This document shows, piece by piece, positions 1,785 to 8,582 of a DNA stretch of 64,000 nucleotides. Below the pieces are notes generated by a model, which was not told where the DNA came from, made no database searches, and saw only the letters and a program-made list of their open reading frames with translations. The stretch comes from Treponema sp. (lineage in GTDB: Bacteria; Spirochaetota; Spirochaetia; Treponematales; Breznakiellaceae), in contig WQXI01000005.1 in the NCBI GenBank assembly GCA_009784935.1, forward strand, positions 1 to 64,000, read 5' to 3'. A program made the translations under genes and the position numbers. Positions within the stretch are counted from its first letter, which is position 1. Every line of letters starts with the position of its first letter.

Positions 1785-2802
1785 ATGAAAGATATATCAA
1801 GCAAAGCGAAATTACTATATCACCTTCGCGAAAATAAAGGGGAGCCTCTCAGCGGAACTAAGCTTGCAAAAGACATCGGTGTTTCGCGTGTTGCAGTTTG
1901 GAAAACTGTTCAGTCATTAATTGAAGCCGGATATTCAATAGAAACTAGGGAAACGGGCTACTTACTCGACCCTAAAAAAGAAAAAGATTTTTTATATCCA
2001 TGGGAATTTAGAGAAAAAGAAAATCTTTTTTATCATTTTAAAAATACGCCAAGCACAATGGACAGAGCAAGAGAATCCGCTCTTAAAGGAGCAAAAAACG
2101 GCAGTGTTTTTACGGCAGAAAAACAAAGCGCAGGAAGGACGCAACGGGCGTACATGGGTTTCACGTCAGGGTGGTTTGTTTTTTTCGATACTAGAAAGAC
2201 CTTCTCTTTCTGCGGCGGATTATACATTAATTTCTTTAATAATGCAGATTGCTGTTGTAAATACAATTACATCGGTATGCGGAAAAACAGCTTATCTTCG
2301 CTGGCCTAATGATATTTATATAAACAACAAAAAAATTGCAGGTATCACTACAGAAATCTCCGCAGAAGGCGATGTAATTTCTTGGTTAACAGGAGGAATC
2401 GGCGTCAATGTAAATAATAACGCTCCTTCTATTAGAGCTGTAAGCTGTGCAGAAGTTACAGGCCGTCAGGTTTCCCGGCGGGAAATTTTAATAAAAATAC
2501 TAGACGAAATTGAAAAAGTAAAAAAAACATTTATGTCTACAGCTTTTTATTCTCAGGGGAACCGCGCTATTGCATCAGAATGGAATTCTCTAGCTGATTG
2601 TATCGGAGCAAAAGCTGCAGTTTTTGAAGCTGATAAAAACGATGAGAATAAATTAAATAAAAATAATAAGCCTTCTAAAATCCTTGCAAGAGGCATTTTT
2701 GAAGGAATTGATCCGTCAGGACGCTGTATTTTAAAAACTAATGATGATAAACATTTATTTTTTAATCATGGTTTAGTTTCGTTAGCATTTATAAATGCCT
2801 AG
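1785..2802 (+). pseudogene. birA: Biotin--[acetyl-CoA-carboxylase] ligase / biotin repressor, frameshifted
   Basis: Two overlapping frames together give one BirA. The first (from ATG 1785) has an N-terminal winged-helix DNA-binding domain (LAKDIGVSRVAVWKTVQSL, about residues 25-45) and the start of the ligase domain, up to EKQSAGR. The second frame continues from GRNGRTW and carries the catalytic core RWPNDIYINNKKIAGITTE and the C-terminal SH3-like domain. BirA joins biotin to the lysine of biotin carboxyl carrier protein and, with the HTH domain, can repress biotin genes. The break is at about 2138. Restoring two G residues there gives the family motif AGRGRNGRTW, so a 2-base deletion explains the shift better than a 1-base insertion. 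Both halves are otherwise well preserved, so recent inactivation, a sequencing error or frameshifting are all possible. Confidence 0.85.
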
Positions 2803-2825: not shown

Positions 2826-4613
2826 TCACATAACATCTAAAAAAGGAATACAAACAAGATTAAACGCGTCTTTTAACACAAGCATTACGGCTCTGCTTAA
2901 TTCCAGCCTTGCTTTAGAAAGCTCTTTGTCTTCGCAGTTTAAAATCGGACATTCATGATAAAAACGGCTGAATGATTTTGATAATTCATATAAGAAACCC
3001 GCAGCTTTAGAAGGATCTAGATTTTCTGCAGCTTCGCTTATTACCGCAGGATAAGAAGAAATTATTTTTATAAGTTCCCACTCCGGATCGGTTATTAATA
3101 ACGAAAAATCATTTTCTTTTTCTTTGCCGTAACTGTCTCCTGCTTTTCTCAGCATAGAAGAAATACGAGCGCCCATATATTGAAGATAAGGTCCTGTATC
3201 TCCCGTAAAAGAAAGCGATTCTTTTGGATCAAAAAGCATGTCTTTTACCGGGCTTGGCTGTAAAAGAAAATAATGAAGCGCACCTAAAGCGATTTTTTCT
3301 GCGACTTCATTTGGATCCCCTACATCTTCTTCTCTTCCCTTTTCGCGAATTTCTGATAAAGCCATGTCTTTTAGAGAATCAATTAAATCATCAGCGTCTA
3401 CAACAGTGCCTTCCCTGCTTTTCATTTTACCTTCGGGCAGATTGACCATACCGTAACTAAGATGAAATAAATCTTTTGCCCATGAGTAGCCGAGCTTTTC
3501 TAAAATAATAAATAACACCTTAAAATGATACTGCTGTTCCGAACCGACAACATATATTAATTTATCAAACTTCCAATCATTGTAACGTTGAATTGCTGTG
3601 CCAAAATCCTGCGTAATATAGATTGAAGTTCCGTCGCTTCTTAATAATATTTTTTTGTCGAGCTTTTCATCACTTAAATCGACAGCAACAGCGCCGTCTT
3701 CCTGCTTATAAAATATTCCTTTTTCCAGTCCTTTTAATACTTCGTCTTTTCCTAGCTTGTATGTTTCACTTTCAAAATTATAAATATCAAAAGAAATCCC
3801 CGTACGCTCGTAGGTTTTCTTCATTCCTTCGATTGCCCAATTATTCATTTGTTTCCAGAGTTCTACAGTTTCGCTGTCTCCTGCTTCCCATTTGCGAAGC
3901 ATTTCTTGAGCTTTTTTCATAGATTCTGTCTGCGCTTCGGCTTTATCTTTATCTATTCCGGATGTAATTAATTCATCTGTTTCTTTTTTTAAATTTTTAC
4001 TAAAAGTTACATACCAGTCACCGACAAAACGGTCGCTTTTTACTTTTTCTGATTCTGGTGTTTTTCCTTGTCCATACTCTTTATATGCGAGCATTGATTT
4101 ACAAATGTGAATACCTCTGTCATTAATGATACAAACCTTCCTCACCTGAGCGCCGCATGCTTTTATTATTCTTGATATGCTTTCTCCTAATACATCGTTT
4201 CTTAGGTGACCAAGATGAAGAGGTTTATTTGTATTTGGGCTGGAAAACTCAATCATTACTTTTTTGCCTGCCATTGTGTCAGGTCTTCCGAAGTTATCTT
4301 TAAAAACTTCATTCAGAATTTCGTTTGCTGTTTTTGAACGATCCATTTTTATATTTACATACGGTCCCTGCGCTTCGAAATTTCCTTTTCCTTTTAATTT
4401 TTCTGCGGTAATTTGCGCTATCTGAGGAGGACCTTTTTTTAGCATTTTTGCAAAATTGAACATAGGAAAACCTATGTCTCCCATTTGCGGATTTGGAGGG
4501 TTTTCTGCAATTACCTGCTGTGTATTTATTTTTTCGCTGATACCTGCTTCGCTTAACAGGGTATTTATAGCCTCGGCAATCAGCTCTTTATATGGCTCTT
4601 TATAATCGTACAT
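2826..4613 (-). CDS. argS: Arginyl-tRNA synthetase
   Basis: A 595-residue class Ia aminoacyl-tRNA synthetase that charges tRNA-Arg with arginine in the cytosol. The N-terminal Add1-type domain (about residues 1-110) is followed by the HIGH-type signature PNTNKPLHLGHLRNDVLG (HLGH at 133-136). The KMSKS-type loop appears as KMKSREGT (from about 396), and the C-terminal all-helical DALR anticodon domain contains GPYLQYMGARISSMLRKA. Length is normal for bacterial ArgRS. The gene ends 24 bp from the 3' end of birA (convergent, no obvious terminator hairpin between). Upstream is a 128-bp spacer with a CACAGAG-type inverted repeat. Confidence 0.97.
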   Translation of the reverse strand: MYDYKEPYKELIAEAINTLLSEAGISEKINTQQVIAENPPNPQMGDIGFPMFNFAKMLKKGPPQIAQITAEKLKGKGNFEAQGPYVNIKMDRSKTANEILNEVFKDNFGRPDTMAGKKVMIEFSSPNTNKPLHLGHLRNDVLGESISRIIKACGAQVRKVCIINDRGIHICKSMLAYKEYGQGKTPESEKVKSDRFVGDWYVTFSKNLKKETDELITSGIDKDKAEAQTESMKKAQEMLRKWEAGDSETVELWKQMNNWAIEGMKKTYERTGISFDIYNFESETYKLGKDEVLKGLEKGIFYKQEDGAVAVDLSDEKLDKKILLRSDGTSIYITQDFGTAIQRYNDWKFDKLIYVVGSEQQYHFKVLFIILEKLGYSWAKDLFHLSYGMVNLPEGKMKSREGTVVDADDLIDSLKDMALSEIREKGREEDVGDPNEVAEKIALGALHYFLLQPSPVKDMLFDPKESLSFTGDTGPYLQYMGARISSMLRKAGDSYGKEKENDFSLLITDPEWELIKIISSYPAVISEAAENLDPSKAAGFLYELSKSFSRFYHECPILNCEDKELSKARLELSRAVMLVLKDAFNLVCIPFLDVM

Positions 4614-5854: not shown

Positions 5855-6508
5855 CTAATTCTTCTCTAAATGCTGGTAATCTTTTAAGGCTGTCCAGTTT
5901 CCGCCCCATGTCCAGCCTCTGGAAACAAGTGATTTGACGATTATATTGTCGTTTGTTAATGTTCCTATTGTGTTGGGATTGTATGTTGAATTAGCTGGTA
6001 ACCTGACGTTTCCCCTAATGTACGGATTTTGCACAGGATTAATGTCAACTGCTCTGCCTCTTGCATGCATAGAAAGTGTTTGTGTCCCTGCAATCATCCT
6101 GTAATTAAACGCTGATGTATTATTTGCTGTCATAGAAAGATTATCGTTCCATCTAAAATTACTGTGAGAAATCGGGATTACAGAATGTATCGAAAACTTT
6201 TCTTTTAGAGCCTCACTAAACGCAAACTCGATATCGTCAATTAAATCCATGTCTATTACTAATTGCCCCTGATGAACTTTGCCGTCAAAGGAATAGTATT
6301 TTACAGTAATCAATCTTTGTCTTTCTCTTATATGCGGCGGACATTGTGCCGAAAGACCAAAAAAGGCTTCTTCGTATGTCATGTCACTGTCGATTATCGG
6401 GTTTTCGAAGGAACCCAGCAAAAATACTGTTTCTTCTGCTTCATTGGTACTGCCCGTCAAAAAGATTGAGAACAATACCAATACAAGCAAAAGATTTTTT
6501 TTTAACAT
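5855..6508 (-). CDS. M15-family D,D-/L,D-carboxypeptidase-like protein, exported
   Basis: A 217-residue protein with an N-terminal signal peptide (basic start, hydrophobic residues 6-18). The C-terminal half is a VanY/M15-type zinc peptidase domain. The three expected zinc ligands are visible: His148 and Asp155 in SMHARGRAVDINP, and His213 in DYQHLEKN; WTWGGNW before the last ligand is also typical. The family cleaves peptide cross-bridges or terminal D-amino acids of peptidoglycan. The start ATG is 2 bases after the stop of the glucosaminidase-like gene, whose end supplies a GGTTAGGA ribosome-binding site, so the two are translationally coupled. Together they would attack both the glycan and the peptide part of the wall. 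Confidence 0.8.
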   Translation of the reverse strand: MLKKNLLLVLVLFSIFLTGSTNEAEETVFLLGSFENPIIDSDMTYEEAFFGLSAQCPPHIRERQRLITVKYYSFDGKVHQGQLVIDMDLIDDIEFAFSEALKEKFSIHSVIPISHSNFRWNDNLSMTANNTSAFNYRMIAGTQTLSMHARGRAVDINPVQNPYIRGNVRLPANSTYNPNTIGTLTNDNIIVKSLVSRGWTWGGNWTALKDYQHLEKN

Positions 6509-6510
6509 TC

Positions 6511-8091
6511 CTAACCGCGTAAACCTCTAAGTATCGAATTTATACTGTTTCTATATTCCACTGTATTATGCGGAGACCATCTTGGATACAAATCTTCTAC
6601 AGTATGTATTGTTCCACGAATATTTGCAATTACTTCCCATCTTGGATTAACATTCTGATTTCTGCCTGATAAACTTCCCCTTGTATACCCTCTTAAATGT
6701 TGAATATGGGCTCGAACCCCTACATTTCGATCATTGAATCTTCCGTTCCATCGATTTGTTGAATTCAAACCTCCATAATTAAATGTTGATGTAACAATTG
6801 TCCTGTTTGTTAGAAATTGAGTAATATGAAGCATTTGAGCTATAGCAATATCGTGGTTAATACCCTCCATTGCTGCTTCACTTATGTATAACCCAATTAG
6901 ACTTTTAATTGCTTCATCAGATAATTGGAGAGGTCTGTTTGATGGTTTATTTCTTTTAACATATGCAAGCACATTGTCCTCATTAGATACACCTGCTCCT
7001 ATTATACTTAGATTTACACTACCGCCTCTGCCGGAATGCTGCATTTGCGTATTGTTTCGAGGTGGAGCGGAAACGTTCGATGATTGAGATGGAGTGTTTG
7101 AGGCAGCAACAGAACTAATTGGGCGCTCTCTTCTATCATTGTTTGTAAAATTTACCATCAGGCGAGGATGTTCTCTGCTTGTTGTTGTTACATTATATCT
7201 TTCAATATCTCCAAGAGAAGCATCTAGTTCATAACTATCTCCTCTCAATTTAAAATGTAAATCCATGCCATTAAATCTTACAACAAAATTCCTGCTTCGA
7301 TTATTTGGATCATTAGGAAGAGTTGTTATTACTCCTATATGAGAAGGAGTAAAATTGATCTCCTGAATTGGAGGAGGCGGAGGTGGATTTATTGTAATTC
7401 CATTTCCGGAAGCTACAGGTACTGCTCTTGCTTCTTCTTCTCTAATTGTAGCTTTAAATTCTGATGATAGAAATAATTGTAGTCCTCTCCTATCAATTTG
7501 ATCAATATAACCAAGGATTTCGTTATTTACCGCTCTTAAATTTGATTGAGCAGCAGGCGGAGGGGTATTTCTTGGTTGTTCAGGAGGAGTAGGAGTAGGA
7601 GGAGTAGGAGCAGGAGGAGCAACAGCTTGACGCGGTGGAGTTCTCGTTAAATTAACAATCTGTGTCCAACCAATTAATGAAGTTCTGCCGTCTGATGAAT
7701 CGTGCTTAATTTGCACTGATCTTCTGTTATTATTTATACGCATAATTGTTACAGGCACATCCTTATCCAAATGTCCAATTGTAGGCGCAAAAAAACCTAA
7801 ATAAGATTTAATTTCAAGCGGATTATTTGTATCAACATACCATACTTGACCTACTACTGGATTATCATTCTGCGCAGCGAGGTTTCCTGAAAGTAAAAAC
7901 CCTGCAACAATTAATAATACAATTTTTTTCATAAACATCTCCTTCTTTCCTAAACGGCTTTTCTTTTTTGTTTCTGTCTTATTATGGATATCTGCCAAGT
8001 TACGGGTTAATTCTCTTATGTAGTCTTTTTCATCTTCATTAAGCTTGTTAAAATTGTTAATTAAAACATTCAGCTTTTTCTGCCTTTCCAT
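6511..8091 (-). CDS. Exported glucosaminidase-like protein with Pro-rich linkers; two possible starts
   Basis: The 526-codon frame has two usable starts. ATG 7932 follows an excellent AAGGAGATGTTT ribosome-binding region and gives a signal peptide (KKIVLLIVAGFLLSGNLAA). ATG 8091 lies about 15 bases downstream of the predicted transcript start, after GGGTGAG, and adds 53 charged residues resembling the tail of the neighbouring XRE regulator (INNFNKLNEDEKDYI). The mature protein has a small beta-rich N-terminal domain, Pro/Thr-rich linkers, a middle beta-rich domain and a C-terminal glucosaminidase-like domain: EAAMEGINHDIAIAQM, NYGGLNS, GVRAHIQHL, then RWSPHN. In this family the residue after the QMxx segment is a catalytic Glu (ETGFL); here codon 423 (6823-6825) reads Ile (HITQFL), so enzymatic activity is doubtful. 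Peptidoglycan binding or remodelling is still the likely role. Confidence 0.7.
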   Translation of the reverse strand: MERQKKLNVLINNFNKLNEDEKDYIRELTRNLADIHNKTETKKKSRLGKKEMFMKKIVLLIVAGFLLSGNLAAQNDNPVVGQVWYVDTNNPLEIKSYLGFFAPTIGHLDKDVPVTIMRINNNRRSVQIKHDSSDGRTSLIGWTQIVNLTRTPPRQAVAPPAPTPPTPTPPEQPRNTPPPAAQSNLRAVNNEILGYIDQIDRRGLQLFLSSEFKATIREEEARAVPVASGNGITINPPPPPPIQEINFTPSHIGVITTLPNDPNNRSRNFVVRFNGMDLHFKLRGDSYELDASLGDIERYNVTTTSREHPRLMVNFTNNDRRERPISSVAASNTPSQSSNVSAPPRNNTQMQHSGRGGSVNLSIIGAGVSNEDNVLAYVKRNKPSNRPLQLSDEAIKSLIGLYISEAAMEGINHDIAIAQMLHITQFLTNRTIVTSTFNYGGLNSTNRWNGRFNDRNVGVRAHIQHLRGYTRGSLSGRNQNVNPRWEVIANIRGTIHTVEDLYPRWSPHNTVEYRNSINSILRGLRG

Positions 8092-8111
8092 ATCTCACCC
8101 GCATTGGGGTT

Positions 8112-8142
8112 TATTATATACTACATTGTAGTATTTGTCAAT
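8112..8142 (-). promoter_or_regulatory. Consensus sigma70 promoter with palindromic operator in its spacer
   Basis: On the minus strand a perfect TTGACA (8136-8141) and a perfect TATAAT (8113-8118) are separated by exactly 17 bp. The spacer is filled by the palindrome ATACTACATTGTAGTAT (8118-8134, 8-bp arms around one base). Transcription would begin near 8106, just before ATG 8091 of the cell-wall hydrolase cassette. A protein bound to the palindrome would block RNA polymerase. The divergent XRE gene 92 bp away is the obvious candidate repressor. Confidence 0.88.
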
Positions 8143-8173: not shown

Positions 8174-8203
8174 TTGTAAGATAACTAATTTTATTGATAG
8201 AAT
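8174..8203 (+). promoter_or_regulatory. Probable promoter of the XRE regulator
   Basis: TTGTAA (8174-8179) and TAGAAT (8198-8203) with an 18-bp spacer precede the GGGAAGG ribosome-binding site (8214-8220) and TTG start at 8226. It is weaker than the divergent promoter, as expected for a repressor gene. Confidence 0.45.
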
Positions 8204-8225: not shown

Positions 8226-8582
8226 TTGGACGCAAAAGCAATTATAAGCCAAAGAATCAAGCATATAAGGAAGACATTAAAACTCACTCAACAGGATTTT
8301 GCTAATGATTTAAAAATAAGTCAGTCTCATGCAGGCGCAATGGAATTAGGCACGCGCAAAATCCCCGAACGAATAATAAAAATAATTTGCTTTACCTACA
8401 ACATAAACGAAAATTGGCTAAAAGCCGGCAAGGGAGAAATGTTCAAAAAAAGCCATGACCTTAAGCTGGAAGAAGCAATAAAAAACTTTAATAAACTTGA
8501 CGATCTCCTGCAGGACTATGTTCTAAAGCAGCTGCGTCTAACCCTCGAATACCAGCAGTCAAAGGATAAAAAAAATAAGTAA
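8226..8582 (+). CDS. XRE-family HTH transcriptional regulator
   Basis: A 118-residue DNA-binding protein. The Cro/C1-type helix-turn-helix fills residues 9-65 (RIKHIRKTLKLTQQDFANDL, then KISQSHAGAMELGTRKIPER), followed by a short C-terminal helical tail. The start is TTG 8226, chosen because GGGAAGG lies 5 bases upstream and no in-frame ATG gives a full HTH. It is divergent from the glucosaminidase-like/M15 pair and faces the 17-bp palindrome in their promoter, so it most likely represses that cassette. The tail (IKNFNKLDDLLQDYV) resembles the first 53 residues of the long form of the target gene. Phage-type repressors look like this, but no other phage gene is nearby. Confidence 0.85.
   Translation: MDAKAIISQRIKHIRKTLKLTQQDFANDLKISQSHAGAMELGTRKIPERIIKIICFTYNINENWLKAGKGEMFKKSHDLKLEEAIKNFNKLDDLLQDYVLKQLRLTLEYQQSKDKKNK

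Follow-up and report, generated by a model that had tools for sequence, protein, structure and literature searches.

Predicted Repressor/Antirepressor Cassette

The consensus promoter described below, the divergently transcribed XRE gene, and the small open reading frame that opens the operon are best explained as a phage-derived repressor/antirepressor cassette reused for envelope genes, an explanation that we consider fairly probable. According to this model, the XRE protein, probably in the form of paired dimers, would bind two predicted operators, O1 and O2, that are two helical turns apart, and would thereby keep RNA polymerase off the promoter. The repressed operon would first yield a domain of about 50 residues, homologous, as judged from sequence profiles, to the C-terminal two-helix domain of the repressor, which by analogy to SinR is expected to dimerize. 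This small domain, encoded by what we call here the micro-ORF, probably forms mixed dimers with XRE and could strip it off DNA, as SinI does to SinR. Leakage of the promoter above some threshold would then lock the system in the on state, with expression of the secreted wall-enzyme genes behind, and the cassette may thus be bistable. Cassettes of this type, apparently of phage descent, seem to have multiplied in this spirochete genus and to have been redirected to many envelope genes; the variant found in the window (the whole 64-kb stretch of DNA analyzed) has its predicted decoy domain joined in frame to the secreted cargo, which has retained its own ribosome site. A more far-reaching scenario, which we find doubtful, is that the genus possesses many self-locking switches insulated from one another, each combining a phage-type repressor with a decoy and an operator pair of its own and turning individual surface proteins on and off cell by cell, and that in the window export could pull the repressor to the membrane and so keep the switch on.

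If true, this model would provide a widespread example of antirepressors that are homologous to the dimerization domain of the repressor and are expressed from the very promoter they release, which is a compact design for bistability. It would further supply dozens of natural repressor/decoy/operator sets for specificity tests and for the construction of insulated genetic switches, and suggest that phage switches put to a new use allow uncultured gut spirochetes to vary their surface. A limited search of the open-licence literature found no description of such spirochete cassettes.

Promoter and Spacer Palindrome

The promoter TTGACA-17-TATAAT, predicted from the sequence, coincides with the sigma-70 consensus. 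Its -35 hexamer TTGACA (positions 8136-8141, minus strand), retained in all five members of the XRE subfamily, is separated by 17 bp from the -10 hexamer TATAAT (8113-8118, minus strand), and no other site in the window matches all 12 bases at a 17-bp spacing. In the complete 2.37-Mb genome there are 18 such sites, compared with three for the reversed-pattern control. The 17-bp spacer, identified both by a script and by direct reading of the sequence, occupies positions 8135-8119 of the minus strand and holds the predicted operator O1 (8118-8134, centered at 8126), a perfect 17-bp palindrome ATACTACAATGTAGTAT composed of 8-bp arms and a one-base center, which covers 16 of the 17 spacer bases and the first T of the -10 hexamer. 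The initial annotation, which had described a perfect promoter with a palindromic spacer between a divergent XRE gene and a pair of wall-hydrolase genes, is thereby confirmed; the XRE gene is located at 8226-8582 (plus strand) and the wall-hydrolase-like pair at 8091-6511 and 6508-5855 (minus strand). Given the position of the -10 hexamer (8118-8113), transcription should start near position 8106, and the first ORF start after the promoter is the ATG at 8091 (minus strand).

Perfect inverted repeats with arms of at least 8 bases and a center of 0-3 bases occur seven times in the 64 kb; from these seven repeats and the single perfect promoter, we estimate the chance of one being placed in the promoter at about 1 in 500. 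The exact palindrome ATACTACAATGTAGTAT has one copy in the genome and none in 39 other genomes of the genus, and inexact copies are no more frequent than expected by chance (86 per strand of the genome at no more than three mismatches vs 114 for the reversed control). Hence the palindrome is not a common genomic repeat, the objection that the initial annotation had raised against its own reading. The regulon that it had expected from a genome scan did not materialize, and a genome-wide regulon of ATACTACAATGTAGTAT was rejected; uniqueness of the operator rather indicates a local switch.

Another perfect TTGACA-17-TATAAT promoter of the same genome (L212, contig G000:C40, positions 4000-4028) has a spacer palindrome TTGTACTAGTACA, which is repeated just downstream, directly followed by a gene for a GntR-type regulator. 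Like the window locus, it has a putative palindromic repressor site between the two hexamers of a consensus promoter, but it has no divergent micro-ORF and is probably a case of ordinary autoregulation. At L096 (G008:C140), an exceptionally long perfect inverted repeat, ATACTATATATTTAGTG-6-CACTAAATATATAGTAT, encloses the divergent promoter and is centered on the -10 region. Two more candidate relatives of the promoter, L044 and L045, were rejected, as they have no adjoining XRE gene or micro-ORF and look like chance matches in A+T-rich DNA.

Paired Candidate Operators

The second predicted operator, O2 (8097-8111, centered at 8104), is an imperfect palindrome, AACCCCAATGCGGGT on the minus strand, that covers the predicted start site; its center is 22 bp downstream of that of O1, just beyond the -10 hexamer. 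Alignment of the intergenic regions of five XRE subfamily members (the window, L012, L013, L014, and L047) demonstrated that the 22-bp spacing of the two elements is kept in all five. The position of O2 is identical in L012, L013, and L014 and differs by one base in L047, and the spacer core CAATG occupies a fixed place in four orthologues (CATTG in L047). The window has its perfect copy in the spacer and an imperfect copy downstream; the situation is reversed in L012 and L013, where the downstream copy is perfect (CCACATTGTGG, CCTCAATGAGG). All five orthologous loci combine the XRE gene with the promoter and the operator core.

The spacing was further analyzed in 74 loci from 25 divergent XRE clusters (60% identity), aligned on the -10 hexamer. 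Both direct and inverted similarity were scored, and downstream regions swapped between clusters served as a control. The similarity of the spacer to the sequence d bp downstream peaks at d = 21-23 (z-scores 5.6-6.3), and the promoter is close to consensus, with at least ten of 12 bases matched in 61 of the 74 loci. The operator cores vary by cluster, for instance, CTCACA, GCTC, and CAATG, as expected if every repressor has its own site. A divergent repressor facing an early promoter, with putative repressor sites overlapping this promoter, is the arrangement typical of phage lysogeny-type control.

In the largest XRE cluster, L077 (L020, L021, L025-L034, L036, L037, L040, L050, and their relatives), CTCACA direct repeats are 21 bp apart, and a third CTCAC is close to the XRE start. 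Most of its members are followed by genes from a single conserved family of membrane proteins (VFSLIGRVNA motif).

The XRE Protein

The predicted repressor (8226-8582, plus strand) is a protein of 118 amino acids with a TTG start, an HTH domain, and a C-terminal two-helix hairpin. Its N-terminal domain is of the XRE/lambda type, matching the HTH_19 family with an E-value of 3.9e-11 and scoring 43.1 bits for PF12844 (cut-off 30.2) and 27.1 bits for PF01381 (cut-off 23). In the AlphaFold2 model (pLDDT 88), the C-terminal helices span residues 79-90 and 93-116. Foldseek places the model nearest to the arbitrium repressor/antirepressor structure 9iaq and to SinR/SinI (1b0n), and its list also holds 9sf2, the Phi106 repressor with AimX; the E-values are modest (the best is 2.9e-3), and most of the match is driven by the HTH. 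The nearest named relative is metagenome-assembled Treponema WQRT01000048, whose XRE protein is 80% identical. The XRE gene itself may have a weak promoter, TTGTAA-18-TAGAAT (8174-8203, plus strand), proposed from consensus match and clear of both O1 and O2.

The initial annotation had suggested a promoter shut by the spacer operator, with the divergent XRE protein as the repressor. Comparison of the five orthologous loci and of the 25 clusters supports XRE as the putative repressor acting on this operator. The plain on/off switch proposed there, however, overlooked the second operator at 22 bp and the repressor-like micro-ORF, which make a repressor/antirepressor switch a likelier mechanism than plain repression.

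The Micro-ORF Is a Predicted Antirepressor

The micro-ORF of the window (7942-8091, minus strand) encodes a domain of about 50 amino acids that is homologous to the XRE C-terminus and in frame with the next ORF. Such micro-ORFs, of about 45-70 codons, are first on the divergent transcript in 73 of 90 XRE loci, 62 of them recognized by the profile and 11 more picked by eye; some loci, for example, L092 and L035, have the cargo but no recognizable micro-ORF. When the micro-ORF profile is compared with the XRE profile by hhalign, it aligns solely at the C-terminus (probability 94.7%, E-value 6e-8). The score of 38.2 compares with a maximum of 20.2 among 200 column shuffles and 11.2 for the reversed profile. 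In the window, the aligned pair consists of KLEEAIKNFNKLDDLLQDYVLKQLRLTLEYQ from XRE and KLNVLINNFNKLNEDEKDYIRELTRNLADIH from the micro-ORF. Applied to 296 genomes of the phylum, the micro-ORF profile matches XRE C-termini in three further genera; two of these also possess their own divergent micro-ORF.

The micro-ORF is closer to the C-terminus of its own repressor than to those of other clusters (24.1 vs 12.3; none of 2000 permutations with one representative per cluster), a resemblance that could be due to co-evolution or to local origin on repeated occasions. The micro-ORF of the largest cluster is clearly coding and under purifying selection, with a median dN/dS of 0.14. The AlphaFold2 model (pLDDT 86) is a two-helix hairpin with helices 2-15 and 19-47; given the hairpins predicted for both proteins and the profile homology, a two-helix hook is common to the XRE C-terminus and the small partner. 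No Pfam family covers the micro-ORF, and none of 23 members matched SinI at E-values up to 1, so the micro-ORF product would work like SinI rather than be a SinI. A sequence search of the PDB with the micro-ORF profile yielded weak matches alone, probably of coiled-coil or helical nature. By analogy, we suggest that the micro-ORF product is probably an antirepressor decoy of the SinR/SinI design; counting against this, a homologous domain could equally stabilize the repressor.

Secreted and Membrane Cargo

The window micro-ORF runs without a stop into the first cargo ORF (6511-7932, minus strand), and therefore the free decoy may not be made, although slippage into the +1 frame within the A-rich stretch ACAAAAAAGAAAAG, near position 7970, would terminate the micro-ORF at about the usual length. 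Translated as one fusion, the frame 8091-6511 would give a product of 526 amino acids. The cargo protein consists of a signal peptide, a proline-rich middle region, and a C-terminus similar to phage endolysins, glucosaminidases, and TftA, and its gene has its own AAGGAG ribosome site and an ATG at 7932. The second cargo gene (5855-6508, minus strand) encodes a protein with a signal peptide, assigned by PF13539 (E-value 2.8e-19) to the M15 D-alanyl-D-alanine carboxypeptidases. In-frame joining of a decoy-like domain, as in the window, was also found in L029 (G030:C1), where it is attached to a membrane protein, and in L100 (G011:C171), where the partner is a longer soluble protein.

The cargo is diverse across the loci and includes lipoproteins, secreted proteins, and membrane proteins. 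In 58 of 69 loci, the N-terminus encoded by the first long gene after the micro-ORF resembles a signal peptide or a membrane segment, and in 18 of 22 clusters this holds for most members; since 26 of the 50 long window ORFs also pass this loose test, the enrichment of the cargo for secreted and membrane proteins is moderate.

Alternative Explanations

Two alternatives concern the palindrome itself. Inverted repeats with arms of this length do arise by chance, as the seven in the 64 kb demonstrate; however, the position, the core, and the 22-bp partner of this one are conserved in orthologues, and the 21-23-bp peak recurs across the 25 clusters, which makes a chance repeat in A+T-rich DNA very improbable. 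The TACA/TGTA half-sites had led the initial annotation to consider an operator for another repressor of the BlaI/MecI/CopY type, and they do resemble those of mec operators. This possibility is now hardly credible: no Penicillinase_R (PF03965) protein was found in the genome, which is 94.6% complete, while seven of 14 control genomes were positive, and the half-sites are not conserved in the orthologues, where the CAATG core alone is kept.

Two others concern the role of the micro-ORF. Its product might be a co-repressor or a negative-feedback partner, if mixed oligomers bound the paired operators better and the operon were self-limiting. Homology to an oligomerization domain predicts interaction but not its sign, and a small co-repressor, Lxc, is known in phage P1 (PMC11323111). 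We nevertheless consider this unlikely, as the micro-ORF product has no DNA-binding domain, so that mixed dimers would lose one reading head, and antagonism is the mode of action in both of the characterized systems closest in fold, those of SinI and of the antirepressor in the 9iaq title. It is quite improbable, too, that XRE is a plain repressor with paired operators and the micro-ORF a leftover or a translational leader, serving in the window as the N-terminal extension of a secreted protein. The window micro-ORF is indeed in frame with a signal-peptide ORF that has its own ribosome site, yet in most loci it is kept as a separate ORF, it is under purifying selection in the largest cluster, and it resembles the cognate repressor.

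Comparison with Known Systems

In Bacillus subtilis SinR/SinI, a two-helix hook is common to both proteins, and the heterodimer cannot repress (PMC3163267). The predicted antirepressor cassette shares with this system an HTH repressor with a C-terminal two-helix hook, a small protein homologous to this hook, and, by prediction, the mixed dimer; SinR prefers inverted repeats, and the candidate spacer operator is one. By contrast, the spirochete small protein is encoded divergently, under the promoter that its repressor shuts, whereas sinI is under Spo0A control, and the genus harbors numerous insulated copies of the cassette, every one of which has a separate operator.

Small phage proteins inactivating CI-type repressors are a recognized class (PMC11323111). 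Judging by the PDB titles, the arbitrium-phage repressor structures (9iaq, and 9sf2 with AimX) likewise involve a small antirepressor acting on a phage repressor, and 9iaq is the top structural match of XRE; unlike in arbitrium phages, no AimR/AimP signaling genes were seen at the spirochete loci. Phages of the Firmicutes type with a CI-like repressor also have an XRE protein, a divergent consensus promoter, and a micro-ORF of 40-58 amino acids first in the operon (unannotated in phage Montmirail), but the spirochete cargo consists of envelope genes.

Distribution and Origin

Of 37 genomes surveyed from the genus of the window, 33 have XRE matches, with one to eight per genome and no XRE of this kind detected in the other four; matches were also found in two of 23 other genomes of the order. 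Draft metagenome bins make up most of the genomes. Names of isolates and contigs suggest that the genus is a termite-gut lineage. The window cassette was found not to be part of a phage or prophage: its neighbors are housekeeping genes (argS-like and alaS-like ORFs), and there are no phage structural or integration genes beside it. The DNA fetched around the orthologous cassettes has no flanking or cargo gene in common with the window. A single inherited location of the cassette was therefore rejected, and the failure of the window neighbors and cargo to recur suggests that the cassette moves or is re-targeted.

On phage contigs with this XRE type, the same layout of the repressor, consensus promoter, and micro-ORF of 40-58 amino acids recurs, and thus a phage origin of the cassette is likely. 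Unannotated micro-ORFs of 39-78 amino acids are located opposite CI-like repressors on viral contigs L117, L125, L126, L140, and L165-L168, and some of them match the spirochete micro-ORF profile. The viral and spirochete micro-ORFs possibly constitute a broad, unnamed antirepressor family.

Elsewhere in the window (1785-2802, plus strand), a BirA-like biotin-ligase gene is apparently split into the overlapping ORFs 1785-2309 and 2104-2802, which, from the translations, suggests either a frameshift or an error in sequencing.
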